Assembly (NCBI GenBank): GCA_902579395.1
Contig: CACHGK010000001.1
Coordinates: forward strand, 209,036 to 273,035
DNA: 64,000 nucleotides
Direction of reading: 5' to 3'
Source of the DNA: an uncultured Alphaproteobacteria bacterium
GTDB taxonomy: Bacteria > Pseudomonadota > Alphaproteobacteria > Methylaequorales > Methylaequoraceae
The notes beneath the pieces were generated by a model that was given only the letters and a program-made list of their open reading frames with translations, did no database searches and was not told the DNA's origin. Both the position numbers and the translations under genes were made by a program. Below are positions 1,649 to 6,765 of this stretch, one piece after another (within the stretch, counting starts at the first letter, position 1; the number at the start of each line of letters is the position of its first letter).

Positions 1649-2197
1649 TTATTTAATTAAATTTGAAAAGTCTTTGAAATGCTTATTATTTGAGTTCCTC
1701 AACAACTCAAATACTAGCATCTCAAAGCTTAAAACTATCACATCATTTTGTTGTAATCTTTGCAAACCTAAATCTTTATTAATTTTTGTTCGAGATCCAA
1801 CACATTCATTTACTACAAAAACATTATAGCCATATCTTCTAAGATCTAAAGCTGTTTGTAATATACATATGTGGGTTTCTATTCCACAAAGAATGACCTG
1901 TTTAGTTCTAATAAGATCCTCAATTGATTTTTTTTCATTAAACGGAAAACATGAAAATGAGGTTTTTTCTAATTTGTTACAGTTTAATGACTCAAGCACC
2001 TGCTTTAAACTCTGAACTGTAGGACCTAAACCTTTTGGATATTGCTCCGAGTATACAATTGGACATTTGATTTTTGAAAATACATTTAATGTTTTTAGTA
2101 GATATTCATTTAAAAGCTCAAAGTTGGCTATTTTGCAAAATAATTTCTCTTGAACATCAACTATTAATAATGAGCAATCTAAAGAATCAACTAACAT
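1649..2197 (-). CDS. Isochorismatase-like cysteine hydrolase
   Basis: This is a 182-residue single-domain protein of the isochorismatase/nicotinamidase-like superfamily. The usual catalytic triad is visible: Asp14 in LLIVDVQ, Lys78 in LEKTSF and Cys111 in GIETHICILQT. The substrate cannot be read from sequence; the length and GIETHIC motif resemble the YcaC-like group of unassigned hydrolases. I chose the ATG at 2197 over a TTG one codon upstream, because it forms a TGATG stop-start overlap with the peroxidase gene, which suggests translational coupling. Confidence 0.85.
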   Translation of the reverse strand: MLVDSLDCSLLIVDVQEKLFCKIANFELLNEYLLKTLNVFSKIKCPIVYSEQYPKGLGPTVQSLKQVLESLNCNKLEKTSFSCFPFNEKKSIEDLIRTKQVILCGIETHICILQTALDLRRYGYNVFVVNECVGSRTKINKDLGLQRLQQNDVIVLSFEMLVFELLRNSNNKHFKDFSNLIK

Positions 2198-2736
2198 CAA
2201 TTTTCAAATAAAGCAGTCTCAATTTGCTTTATTAAACCCTCAGAGGTTGGACTAGTCATTGATGAAAACCAATTGATTATTTGTCCATCCTTGCCGATTA
2301 GATACTTATGAAAATTCCATCTTGGTTGACCAATTACTGAGACATTATCATTAATCCATTTATATATGGGATGGGCGGCTTCCCCTTTAATCTTTTGTAT
2401 AGCAGACATCGGGAACTCTACGCCATATCTTATTTCACAGAACTGTTTAACATCTTCATCTTTGGATAACTCCTGGTTAAAATCATTTGTTGGCACACCA
2501 AAAACAACTAAACCATCTTCTTTGTATCTTTCGTAGATCTTCTGAAGACCAGAGTATTGGGGGGTAAATCCACATTTGGATGCAGTATTCACCAGAAGAA
2601 CTACTTTATTTTTATAGTCTGCAAAATTTATATTTTCGCCAGAAATTGATTCTATGGAAAAGTCATGAAATACTTTTTCAGAGGATTTTGAGTAAGAAAA
2701 AAACATTGTTGTTAAAATCAATAATAAAACTTTCAT
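2197..2736 (-). CDS. Glutathione-peroxidase-family thiol peroxidase, probably exported
   Basis: This 179-residue thioredoxin-fold peroxidase has the family motif NTASKCGFTPQY with the peroxidatic Cys at residue 55, then VPTNDF, and WNFHKYLIGKDG with the conserved Trp near the end. It is a Cys enzyme, not a selenoenzyme. Residues 1-17 are hydrophobic and look like a signal peptide, so it probably reduces peroxides in the periplasm (inference); many homologues are cytoplasmic. It is the first gene of a pair with the downstream hydrolase and diverges from the lipoprotein gene across 55 bp. Confidence 0.88.
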   Translation of the reverse strand: MKVLLLILTTMFFSYSKSSEKVFHDFSIESISGENINFADYKNKVVLLVNTASKCGFTPQYSGLQKIYERYKEDGLVVFGVPTNDFNQELSKDEDVKQFCEIRYGVEFPMSAIQKIKGEAAHPIYKWINDNVSVIGQPRWNFHKYLIGKDGQIINWFSSMTSPTSEGLIKQIETALFEN

Positions 2737-2791: not shown

Positions 2792-3211
2792 ATGTCTTTC
2801 TATAAATTATTATCAACTATAATTTTTTTTTTTCTAGCTTCATGCTCAAACGAAAATCTGGTTCCAGTAAAAGGGCCAGAAGGAGACCCGAACTTAGAAT
2901 TAAACTTTTCTCAATTTGATGATATACCTATACCAGTAAATTCAAAGCTGATAAGAGAAGATTCGATAATCATTTCCAGAAAAGTAGGTTGGTCAGGAAG
3001 ATTGGTTTTTGATACAAGTGAAAATCAGATTGAGGTTTTTGATTTTTTTAGAAACGAGTTGCCAAAGTTTGGGTGGAAGAAAATTTCAGAAATAAGTTCA
3101 GAAAGTAGTTTACTTAATTATCAAAATAATCAAAGATTCGCTTCAATACAAATTTTTGAAAAAACTCTTTTTGGATCAAAAGTAAAAATTACAGTTACTG
3201 AAATAGAATAA
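2792..3211 (+). CDS. Small lipoprotein of unknown function
   Basis: The 139-residue product begins with a hydrophobic segment ending in LASC, with the lipobox Cys at residue 18, so it should be lipidated and membrane anchored. The mature part has a short FDDIPIP segment, then alternating beta-like stretches (GRLVFD, FGWKKI, FASIQIF, VKITVTE). I recognise no catalytic residues and assign no function. It stands alone, divergent from the peroxidase gene, with 198 bp of non-coding DNA between it and the recombinase gene. It could be host sequence or cargo of a decayed element. Confidence 0.7.
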   Translation: MSFYKLLSTIIFFFLASCSNENLVPVKGPEGDPNLELNFSQFDDIPIPVNSKLIREDSIIISRKVGWSGRLVFDTSENQIEVFDFFRNELPKFGWKKISEISSESSLLNYQNNQRFASIQIFEKTLFGSKVKITVTEIE

Positions 3212-3409
3212 ATAAATAATAATTTGAATCAGTAAACCTTACTATAAGGAATATAAAATATTTCCCTTCTTTATGATAAGTTTACAGATGTAAATTCAAT
3301 CGAAATAAAAATCCCATCATTATTAATTAAAAAAACCATCTAATAACTCAAGCACTTGACTAGAGATTCAGAGGAAATTTTTAAACTTAGAATTTTATTA
3401 CATTATATT
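3212..3409. other. Intergenic region without a gene
   Basis: This AT-rich 198 bp lies between the convergent lipoprotein and recombinase genes. I see only a weak CCTTA-CTA-TAAGG hairpin near 3237. I looked here for a copy of the tRNA-Leu 3' end that could mark the far end of an integrated element and found none by eye. Confidence 0.5.
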
Positions 3410-4666
3410 TTATATATGGACCAATTGACTTAACCAGCTAGATTTTATATCGAATGATATATCATTGCTATAAAATGATTTTTTTTTCGCCAAACCAATT
3501 ACATCAGAAATAATTTGTTCAGGACAACCTATCTCTTTTAATCTTTCAATAAGTGTATACTTAAAAGAAATACAAGTTTTACCATCTGATAAATTTTTTA
3601 TTTTATCATTAAGTCTTTTCTCTATTGTTATAAAATTTTTCTTTTTACTTATGAAGGAATTGAAAAAGAATAAACTTGAGTCAGATATTCCAATTTTCTT
3701 AACAGTATGCAATGACAATCCAACTAAAGGAATCACTCTTCTCTTGTATATATTATTTATGGATCTTAATTTATTTGATCTGATAACAATGTATGGGTTA
3801 AACTTACTAATCTTAACATCTTCATTTGCAAGACCAATAATTTCATTGAAGGTGCATCCAGTATCATATATCATTCCACAAATTAATGCTAATACAGAAT
3901 CATTTTCGAGACAAAATTTTTTAATTTTAACGAGTTCATCTCTATCAAAAATTTGTCTATTGATAATTGATTTATTTTCTGGCCATTTAAGACTAGAAAA
4001 AGGGTTTCTCTTGTCGATTGAATAATTCTTAAAAATTACATTAAATAGGTTTTGAATATTGGATTGATTTCTTTTTCCTGTAGAAATTTTATTCATATTA
4101 ACAAATTGATCCCTAAAGTTTTTAGCATCAATTGAAGAGTATTCTGTTAAACACTTGTCTCCACAAAACTTAATCATCATACTGACTGATTTTTTTATTG
4201 ATTTTGATTTCTTTGATTCTATTGAAACTCTTTTTAAATTAAGGTAAGCGTATAAAGCATGACTTAATTTAGGAAGTTTCTTTTCTTCATCTAAAATTAA
4301 ATGATCTAATGAATGTTTAAAACTACCAGAATCCTGGTTCTTATAATGATCAATTAATTCCTTCTTGGAATACAATACGTGATCCATTAAATACTCATAA
4401 TCATCAATAAATTCTAATGAATATTTTCTTATGTCTATCCTTTTTTGTCCAAAAATTTTTTTTAAATATGTATCAGAATTTTTTTCAATTTCATTGAACA
4501 TTTTCTTGTGTTCTAAGGCTTGAAGCTTTGCTCTTTTGACCGCTGTTGGAATTTTATTGGTTTTGAGAGAGATTTTTAATGTTGATTTTCCAAGAATATT
4601 TATCAATTTATTTGGAATAGCCCTTTGATACCAATACTGATTACCATGTCTGTAGATATATTTCAT
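3410..4666 (-). CDS. Degenerate tyrosine recombinase (integrase-like) beside tRNA-Leu
   Basis: From the ATG at 4666 this is an intact 418-residue protein. The N-terminal segment KYIYRHGNQYWYQRAIP resembles the DUF6538 arm domain of phage-type integrases. A SAM-like core-binding segment and the catalytic domain follow. In the catalytic domain most active-site residues are changed: the Arg of TGxR is Thr272 (TGCTFNEI), the HxxR box reads ISFK (Ile366, Lys369), and the last His is Leu392 (IGLAKK). A Lys in KRRVIPL and a candidate Tyr399 remain. Strand transfer is therefore doubtful, yet there are no stops or frameshifts. The frame stays open for 19 more codons into the tRNA, but the usual integrase start KYIYR supports 4666. 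The gene starts 12 nt after the tRNA CCA, the normal place for an integrase at a tRNA attachment site. Confidence 0.8.
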   Translation of the reverse strand: MKYIYRHGNQYWYQRAIPNKLINILGKSTLKISLKTNKIPTAVKRAKLQALEHKKMFNEIEKNSDTYLKKIFGQKRIDIRKYSLEFIDDYEYLMDHVLYSKKELIDHYKNQDSGSFKHSLDHLILDEEKKLPKLSHALYAYLNLKRVSIESKKSKSIKKSVSMMIKFCGDKCLTEYSSIDAKNFRDQFVNMNKISTGKRNQSNIQNLFNVIFKNYSIDKRNPFSSLKWPENKSIINRQIFDRDELVKIKKFCLENDSVLALICGMIYDTGCTFNEIIGLANEDVKISKFNPYIVIRSNKLRSINNIYKRRVIPLVGLSLHTVKKIGISDSSLFFFNSFISKKKNFITIEKRLNDKIKNLSDGKTCISFKYTLIERLKEIGCPEQIISDVIGLAKKKSFYSNDISFDIKSSWLSQLVHI

Positions 4667-4678
4667 TTCTAAAACTTT

Positions 4679-4766
4679 TGGTGCGGTCGAGAAGACTCGA
4701 ACTTCCACAGGCAATTTGCCCACAACGACCTCAACGTTGCGCGTCTACCAGTTCCGCCACGACCGC
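4679..4766 (-). tRNA. tRNA-Leu (GAG)
   Basis: Read on the minus strand, the 7-bp acceptor stem is GCGGTCG with CGACCGC, the anticodon loop TTGAGGT gives GAG, there is a long variable arm (GGC/GCC stem) as expected for Leu, and the T-loop is TTCGAGT. Discriminator A and an encoded CCA end the 88 nt gene. It lies 10 bp after pccA and 12 bp before the recombinase gene. Confidence 0.95.
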
Positions 4767-4776
4767 TTAATAATTC

Positions 4777-6765
4777 TTAATCAAATTCAAGAATAATCTG
4801 ATCAACTTCCAAACTATCTCCTTCTTTGCAATTTATTGTTTTTATTTTAGTTTTTTTCTCGGCTTTTATTATGTTTTCCATTTTCATTGCCTCGATAATT
4901 GCTAAAGGTTGATTCTCCTCAATAACCTGATTTTCTTTAACAAGAATAGAAACCAATAAACCTGGCATAGGTGCCATTAAGAATTTTGACTTGTCTTCTT
5001 TTTTTCTAGGTATCATAATTTTATTCAGTTCAGAGTGCCTTTCCGACAAAACTAAAATATTATGTAGTGCACCTTTATGATTTATTAAAAACCTTGGACC
5101 ATTTCTTTTAATACTAAAATAGGAAAGATTGTTATCAATAATTGCTGAAAAAAGTGGATAACCGATATTCCAATTACTTTTTAAATTAAAATACTTTTTA
5201 TTAACATAAATATCATAACTTTTATTAAAATTATTGAAAGAAATAGACGCATCATAACTTTTATTTTCATCAATAACACACCAATTATTATCTACGGTTT
5301 TATTAAACCCCTTAAGTTGATTTGAAATTGAAGCTGCTCTAAGCAAGTACTTATAATTTACAAATGTAGCAACTGCATAAAGCTGCATTTGATGACTTAC
5401 CTCCGTTTTAAATGAATCGTATCCACTTGGATAGTTTTCAGCAATAAATGATGTTGAGTAGTTACCGTTATAAAACTTAGGATTTTGCAAGATATCAGAA
5501 AGAAAATCTCTATTTGTTTTTACACCTTCGATAAAATACTTGTCCAACGCATTTATCATTTCAGAAATTGTATCTTTCCTATTTTTAGTATACGCACATA
5601 ACTTCGAAATCATTGGATCATAAAACATACTTATCTCTGAGCCCTCAACTACTCCAGAATCTACTCTAGTACTTTTACCTCTTGGTTCGATGTATCTAGT
5701 AAGTCTTCCAATAGATGGTAGAAAATTTTTTGACGAGTCCTCTGCATATATCCTACATTCAATTGCTGATCCACTAAATTTTACGTCATTTTGCCGTAAA
5801 GATAATTTTTCACCTGAAGCTACTCTTATCATCTGCTCAACAAGATCTATTCCAGTAACTAGTTCAGTAACTGGATGTTCAACTTGAAGCCTTGTATTCA
5901 TTTCTAGAAAATAAAAATTCTTATCTTTATCTACAACAAACTCAACCGTACCTGCTGAATAGTATCCAACTGCTTTCGCTAGCTGAATTGCCTGACTAAC
6001 CATCTTTTCTCTTAATTTCTCATCAACAAAAATACTTGGCGCCTCCTCTATTACTTTTTGATGTCTTCTTTGAATAGAACATTCTCTTTCACCTAGGTGA
6101 ATAAAATTGCCAAACTGATCCCCCAAGACTTGAATTTCAATATGTTTTGGAAATTCTATAAACTTTTCAATGAATACTCTATCATCGCCAAAACTTGACT
6201 TAGCCTCATTTATTGCTGAATTAAAATTATCCTTAAGCTCAGATTCATTAAAAGCAATTCTCATGCCCTTGCCGCCACCTCCAGCGGAGGCTTTAACCAT
6301 AAGTGGATAACCAATCTCTTTAGCCTGCTTTATAGCTTCATTAATATTCGGAACAATCTCTAAACCACCAGGGACAACTGACACACCAGCTGACTTTGCA
6401 ATCTTTTTTGATTCAATCTTATCACCCATCGAGGAAATTGCTTCACTTGGAGGACCAATAAAAATTTTTCCAATTTTTTGTACCTCATCTCTAAAATTAA
6501 CATTCTCAGACAAAAAACCATATCCTGGGTGTACTGCTTCAGCACCTGTTTTTTTAATTGCATCAATTATTTTGTTAATAATTAGGTAGCTTTCCGCGGA
6601 TGTATTGCCACCAATATTCAGATACTCATCAGCCATATTCACATGTGGAGCATTTAAATCTGGATCAGAACAAATTGATACTGTTTTTATACCCATTTTT
6701 CTCGCAGTTTTAATTATTCTACAAGCAATTTCGCCCCTATTTGCAATCAAGATTTTTTTTAGCAT
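4777..6765 (-). CDS. pccA: Propionyl-CoA carboxylase alpha subunit (biotin carboxylase + biotin carrier)
   Basis: This 662-residue subunit carboxylates biotin with ATP and bicarbonate and passes the carboxyl group to PccB, turning propionyl-CoA into methylmalonyl-CoA. The N-terminal biotin carboxylase core starts LKKILIANRGEIACRI; the ATP-grasp loop ASAGGGGKGMRI is near residue 160 and EMNTRLQVEHPVTE near 290. The C-terminal biotinyl domain carries EAMKM with the biotin-accepting Lys628. The region between should be the BT domain that contacts PccB. pccB ends 1 bp upstream, so they form one operon. Acetyl-CoA or methylcrotonyl-CoA carboxylase is the alternative, but PccB argues for propionyl-CoA. 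Confidence 0.93.
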   Translation of the reverse strand: MLKKILIANRGEIACRIIKTARKMGIKTVSICSDPDLNAPHVNMADEYLNIGGNTSAESYLIINKIIDAIKKTGAEAVHPGYGFLSENVNFRDEVQKIGKIFIGPPSEAISSMGDKIESKKIAKSAGVSVVPGGLEIVPNINEAIKQAKEIGYPLMVKASAGGGGKGMRIAFNESELKDNFNSAINEAKSSFGDDRVFIEKFIEFPKHIEIQVLGDQFGNFIHLGERECSIQRRHQKVIEEAPSIFVDEKLREKMVSQAIQLAKAVGYYSAGTVEFVVDKDKNFYFLEMNTRLQVEHPVTELVTGIDLVEQMIRVASGEKLSLRQNDVKFSGSAIECRIYAEDSSKNFLPSIGRLTRYIEPRGKSTRVDSGVVEGSEISMFYDPMISKLCAYTKNRKDTISEMINALDKYFIEGVKTNRDFLSDILQNPKFYNGNYSTSFIAENYPSGYDSFKTEVSHQMQLYAVATFVNYKYLLRAASISNQLKGFNKTVDNNWCVIDENKSYDASISFNNFNKSYDIYVNKKYFNLKSNWNIGYPLFSAIIDNNLSYFSIKRNGPRFLINHKGALHNILVLSERHSELNKIMIPRKKEDKSKFLMAPMPGLLVSILVKENQVIEENQPLAIIEAMKMENIIKAEKKTKIKTINCKEGDSLEVDQIILEFD

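Follow-up and report, generated by a model that had tools for sequence, protein, structure and literature searches.

The protein encoded at positions 3410-4666 on the reverse strand of the window (the whole 64,000-nucleotide stretch of DNA that was analysed) is best explained overall as a domesticated, clade-wide descendant of an integrase that no longer recombines DNA and probably binds it, with a tandem repeat as its likely target. We put the probability of this reading at about 0.7. The window is part of a 1.30-Mb draft genome from the HIMB59/AEGEAN-169 group (PMC10308909), and the gene is a single-copy, vertically inherited chromosomal gene that is kept by purifying selection. Domestication is favored because the same residues have been lost throughout the clade, the protein is under purifying selection, the locus is fixed, and the neighboring gene mgtE has been lost but this gene never has.

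The open reading frame starts with ATG and runs uninterrupted through the 418 codons that the initial annotation had counted, with zero internal stops. Its product was identified from the reading frame, a Pfam search, a fold search and an alignment of orthologues as a degenerate DUF6538-type protein of 418 amino acids with the tyrosine recombinase fold. The N-terminal, arm-like DUF6538 domain (residues 1-60, 4487-4666, reverse strand) was assigned from Pfam and the alignment and contains 22 invariant residues; the Pfam match (PF20172) covers residues 3-60 with an E-value of 1.2e-12 and 47.8 bits against a cut-off of 27. It is followed by a core-binding (SAM-like) domain at about residues 131-230 (3977-4276, reverse strand), placed by the fold search, and a degenerate catalytic domain at residues 231-418 (3413-3976, reverse strand), placed by the fold search and the alignment. 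A structure model predicted with 18 orthologues as input (mean pLDDT 76, pTM 0.45) has the two-domain core-binding and catalytic fold of the solved tyrosine recombinases, and residues 129-397 of this predicted model align with XerA, lambda Int, Cre and XerH at Z scores of 12-16. A second prediction made from a single cousin sequence reached a pLDDT of 34 and was discarded. The Pfam search found no match to Phage_integrase (PF00589) in the window protein, and the matches among the orthologues all fall below the cut-off. The protein has the N-terminal domain by which the DUF6538 integrase subfamily is recognised, but it lacks the above-threshold PF00589 match that also marks the subfamily. The integrase architecture read from the sequence initially is thus borne out by both the domain and the fold. 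DUF6538 as a name was not found in the literature searched.

The gene also occupies the position at a tRNA 3' end that had been claimed for it. Its ATG lies 12 bp past the 3' end of tRNA-Leu(GAG) (4679-4766, reverse strand) on the same strand, and this tRNA lies upstream of the gene at every orthologous locus that extends that far. tRNA-Leu(GAG) is the ancestral integration target of the integrase gene. The conserved upstream syntenic anchor is a gene for the alpha subunit of an acyl-CoA carboxylase of the propionyl/methylcrotonyl type (PCC, 4777-6765, reverse strand). Downstream, the conserved anchor is a small lipoprotein-like gene (LIP, 2792-3211, forward strand), and a glutathione-peroxidase-like gene (2197-2736, reverse strand) serves as the second. 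The 198-bp spacer at 3212-3409 of the window may be a remnant of mgtE (compare L121, 3530-4897).

The catalytic positions were assigned by aligning the window protein and 18 full-length orthologues with catalytically complete close cousins. These cousins (L058-L066, L229-L238 and Ruegeria WP_011537162.1) are tRNA-targeting proteins of Alphaproteobacteria with DUF6538 and Phage_integrase domains. At codon 272 (3851-3853, all codons here on the reverse strand) the catalytic Arg I of the TGxR box is replaced by Thr, and the orthologues have Thr, Ser, Lys, Met or Asn but never Arg. Codons 366-369 (3560-3571) read IxxK in place of HxxR; the His is missing in all 18 orthologues and Arg II is mostly Lys or Arg. 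Codon 392 (3491-3493) is Leu in place of the His/Trp of the third box, which is likewise lost in 18 of 18. The three substitutions proposed initially (Thr for Arg, IxxK for HxxR and Leu for the last His) are therefore the ones that the cousin alignment gives, and they extend to every full-length copy in seven genera, with substitutes that vary by lineage. The initial annotation had also left a Lys and a candidate Tyr in place. The Tyr holds, as the former nucleophile at codon 399 (3470-3472) is invariant in all 18 orthologues. The Lys does not: the beta-hairpin position at codon 304 (3755-3757) is Asn in the window copy and Asn, Lys, Ile, His or Arg among the orthologues, with the Lys present in 8 of 18. 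The survivors of the key set in the window copy are Tyr399, the acidic E275 and K369, a conservative replacement for Arg II, so that neither this protein nor its orthologues have the R-K-H-R-H/W-Y set of an active tyrosine recombinase.

Relocation of the missing residues to other parts of the fold was considered and rejected. The alignment contains no conserved His anywhere in the catalytic domain across the orthologues. The Args that are conserved are at positions 296, 301, 310 and 375. As the close active cousins also have Arg at 301, 310 and 375, the conserved Args are not regarded as catalytic residues that have moved.

Orthologues occur in seven genera of one family (g1, g3, g7, g8, g10, g11 and g12). 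The gene-bearing clade comprises 25 genomes, and the locus is assembled in 20 of them; the remaining five lack the anchors or have them interrupted where a contig stops. In 20 of 20 assembled loci the gene is single-copy and at the same place, and G008 and G029 have contig-edge pieces only. Seven genomes from five sister genera have the empty site, with PCC, tRNA-Leu, mgtE in some, and LIP in that order. Presence and absence map to one change on the carboxylase tree with a branch support of 100/99; this tree is unrooted, so that it does not polarise gain against loss. From the nature of integrases we infer that the change was a gain. The gene's own tree recovers the same three groups as the carboxylase tree. 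The genomes that were compared are incomplete single-cell and metagenome assemblies.

In G001, G014, G022 and G026 the integrase descendant is separated from the lipoprotein gene by mgtE, which in the gene-lacking G017 follows tRNA-Leu directly. Since it is found in these four gene-bearing genomes and in G017, mgtE predates the integrase descendant and has been lost several times, but at the assembled loci the neighboring integrase descendant has never been lost. No att repeats and no cargo were found at tRNA-Leu, and nothing but this gene, joined in some genomes by mgtE, lies between the tRNA and the anchors. A relic att site was considered and rejected, as no part of the tRNA 3' end is repeated downstream. 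A search with the orthologue alignment found no relatives in viral contigs, and a phage origin by close match was set aside because the only matches were to integrases of Microcystis phages, which are distant at 20% identity.

The catalytic losses could also mean that the gene is a recently inactivated integrase, a relic heading to decay that is still open by chance. Its rate fits this to some extent, as the integrase descendant evolves faster than its neighbors: between G001 and the window its identity is 58-59% compared with 87% for the carboxylase, and omega is about 0.01-0.06 for the carboxylase and the peroxidase. The selection estimates point the other way. Pairwise omega from a codon likelihood method is 0.11-0.20 in seven pairs with dS of 0.27-0.75, well below 1, and the M0 model over seven g1 species gives 0.107, better than an omega of 1 by a 2dlnL of 612. 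In g1 the regional values are 0.041 for DUF6538, 0.10 for the core-binding domain, 0.097 for the beta2-beta3 hairpin and 0.088 for the C-terminal part, and even the fastest stretch of the gene reaches 0.21. The protein is constrained along its whole length and the arm domain the most. No frameshift is present in any full-length copy. Together with identical losses in 18 orthologues from seven genera and a locus that has never been lost, these values make a decaying relic highly improbable, and the suggestion that the integrase died very recently can be dropped. The alternative offered beside it, domestication, gains from the shared losses, the rejection of neutrality, the fixed locus and the congruent trees. 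Vertical inheritance, a fixed locus and purifying selection, by which a domesticated host gene is recognised, are all found here.

A candidate for the DNA target of the domesticated protein comes from the spacer that separates the gene from tRNA-Leu. In g3, g7, g8 and g11 this spacer is 42-47 bp long and holds TGTGGTAGANNNGTAGTATT or a near copy of it, and the rest cannot be aligned. The conserved element is a 20-bp tandem direct repeat with an 11-bp period, TGTGGTAGAAT x2. A search of the family with TGTGGTAGANNTRTRGTA that allowed one mismatch gave 33 matches in 21 of the 25 gene-bearing genomes and none in the seven gene-lacking genomes, and the reversed control gave one match in all 32. 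Because the gene-bearing genomes form one clade, this co-occurrence of gene and repeat counts as one phylogenetic event and not many. The consensus over 34 sites consists of two TGTGGTA copies 11 bp apart and carries 29 bits. In g1, g10 and g12 only 6-14 bp lie between the tRNA and the start of the gene. The window itself has no convincing repeat site, with one match at three mismatches against a chance expectation of 1.02. Its own genus is without the repeat beside the gene and has conserved copies at the two other places described below.

The active cousins carry repeats in a comparable position. They share the three-part architecture of the window protein and its place and orientation after a tRNA, and most lie directly downstream of one. 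They differ in having the set TGMR/K/HSFRH/GGW/Y (with Tyr for the HxxR His in a few) and in that their sites differ between genomes. Several have tandem repeats of 11-12 bp at the integrase start codon, with a sequence that is each cousin's own. These are perfect (8/8) in L059 (TGACGTACAAAA x2), L062 (GGTCGTAGAAAT x2) and L235 (GGTAGACCGAAT x2) and weaker in L065, L066, L231 and L232. Six of 11 cousin lineages reach 7/8 identities compared with a background of 4.6%, a figure that is optimistic because the 11-12 bp period was chosen after looking. Of the lineages looked at later, only the one made up of L241 and its Ruegeria relative agreed; the rest either lacked such a repeat or gave no basis for a judgement. 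Because several active cousins carry comparable repeats at the start codon, the clade repeat is a candidate binding site, and the two copies of TGTGGTAGAAT are the likely target of the protein. Further DUF6538-like integrases, separate from the gene studied here and with all catalytic residues present, are encoded by L021 (G020), L037 (G010) and L038 (G007); no tRNA occurs in the stretch examined.

The matches lie mainly at three places: beside the gene, after tRNA-Ser(GCT) and after the stop codon of ORF216. The tRNA-Ser(GCT) gene follows gatB, and the repeat lies ~3-12 bp downstream of it in g3 and g8 and ~65-70 bp downstream in g1; no repeat was found at this site in the four gene-lacking genomes examined. 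In L173 and its g1 relatives a gene of the MAPEG family converges on tRNA-Ser(GCT), and the repeat is near the 3' end of the MAPEG gene. ORF216 encodes a protein of ~213 amino acids without a Pfam match and occurs only in g1, g3, g8 and g10 (loci L155-L167, for example G002:C6:21331-21969). The repeat lies 0-2 bp after its stop codon in 13 of 13 genomes with the ORF intact. Frameshifts disrupt the ORF in G006, but the repeat site is kept there. In g7 a repeat without ORF216 (G018:C36:13209-13226) lies ~56 bp past a gene that is also upstream of ORF216 in G002 and G026. No known RNA family beyond a tRNA was found at the repeat loci. The sites at tRNA-Ser and ORF216 do not fit an ordinary promoter operator, because both lie at the 3' ends of genes and the tRNA-Ser site is between convergent genes.

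Viral contigs contain 26 exact matches to the repeat, many of them near-copies of one stretch. These were judged to be chance matches, as related integrases, tRNAs and ORF216 are all absent from their vicinity. In one group of viral contigs (L278, L281, L283, L286 and L297-L300), TAATGTGGTAGAATTATAGTATTGGGG recurs within nearly identical flanks and seems to come directly after a stop codon; no link of this group to the integrase descendant was found.

The places at which the repeat is found bear on two further explanations. In the first, the dead integrase would occupy the 3' flanks of tRNA genes and so block related tRNA-targeting elements, which would itself be a domestication for DNA binding, directed against mobile elements. 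Two of the three conserved site types are directly downstream of tRNA genes, and four active cousins (L062, L231, L235 and L237) are at tRNA-Leu(GAG) itself, as this would have it. The third site type, however, follows ORF216, a reading frame and no tRNA gene; repeats of the arm type are normally part of the element and not of attB; and active DUF6538-like integrases persist in some genomes of the clade (L037 and L038). We therefore consider such a guarding role unlikely. In the second, the protein would work by contacting other proteins, for instance by modulating XerC/XerD or active integrases, and the repeats would serve a different regulator. G000 and several relatives do encode two Xer-like recombinases (replacement of Xer by this protein was rejected, as both genes are already present in G000), and the link between gene and repeat rests on one clade. 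Against this, the repeat lies in the 42-47 bp spacer, the place where several cousins have their own repeats, and the arm and the basic hairpin are the most conserved parts of the protein. A role in protein contacts is accordingly improbable, slightly more so than guarding.

The reading that we prefer, a domesticated DNA-binding protein, can be set out as follows. A DUF6538 integrase gene that targeted tRNA-Leu(GAG) would have arrived between this tRNA and mgtE in an ancestor of the seven HIMB59 genera. The protein then lost Arg I, the His of HxxR and the His/Trp of the third box, the mobile element itself was lost too, and purifying selection has kept the gene. The retained DUF6538 arm, core-binding domain, basic beta2-beta3 hairpin and structural Tyr would allow sequence-specific DNA binding without recombination. 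The repeats may be bound through the DUF6538 arm, and the remaining recombinase fold may add DNA contact or assembly. Where the repeat precedes the gene (g3, g7, g8 and g11) binding could be autoregulatory; at tRNA-Ser and ORF216 it could serve regulation, insulation, blocking or bridging of loci. In g1, g10 and g12 the site at the gene's own promoter is gone, and judging from the short spacing the gene is probably expressed by read-through from the tRNA-Leu promoter. A DNA-binding role at the tRNA-Leu locus is plausible, and the spacer repeat conserved in four genera adds support. The role is probably wider than this locus because the repeat copies of the window's own genus are at tRNA-Ser and ORF216. 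More tentatively, at somewhat below even odds, the protein may mark loci for the host, acting as an insulator, roadblock or bridge at its own promoter, the tRNA-Ser 3' flank and the 3' end of a clade-specific ORF, and not as a phage repressor.

The closest parallel is MrpR (YopR), the master repressor of the Bacillus prophage SPbeta, a dead tyrosine recombinase with a solved structure (PDB 8A0A; PMC10516654). Like the window protein, MrpR has lost the Arg I, HxxR His and third-box residues and has kept the Tyr (Table 3 of PMC10516654). Mutants in this Tyr are temperature-sensitive (PMC10516654), so its retention in the window protein may be explicable by analogy. MrpR acts as a regulator that does not recombine DNA but binds to repeated elements in it, which compare with the candidate repeat sites described here. 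It differs in being a prophage gene without a DUF6538 arm, whereas the gene studied here is chromosomal and vertically inherited with no element left, and its DNA binding is inferred. KplE1 IntS represses its own promoter through sites adjoining the tRNA, and the same is predicted for many integrases encoded next to tRNA genes (PMC2951348). The likeness is in an integrase gene beside a tRNA with sites for its own product in the promoter; IntS, however, is an active prophage recombinase, and autoregulation of the gene studied here is a proposal. The Crypton-derived DUF3504 proteins of animals are likewise domesticated tyrosine recombinases that have lost the catalytic tetrad (PMC3212892), but they are eukaryotic, have lost the Tyr as well and are fused to other domains.

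Dead tyrosine recombinases that serve as DNA-binding regulators are thus known from the prophage protein MrpR and from the eukaryotic Crypton descendants. The conserved repeat sites make the idea of a domesticated DNA-binding protein directly testable. If it is true, selfish integrases can turn into host proteins in bacteria as well, and in this case would have done so clade-wide in streamlined, free-living ocean bacteria.
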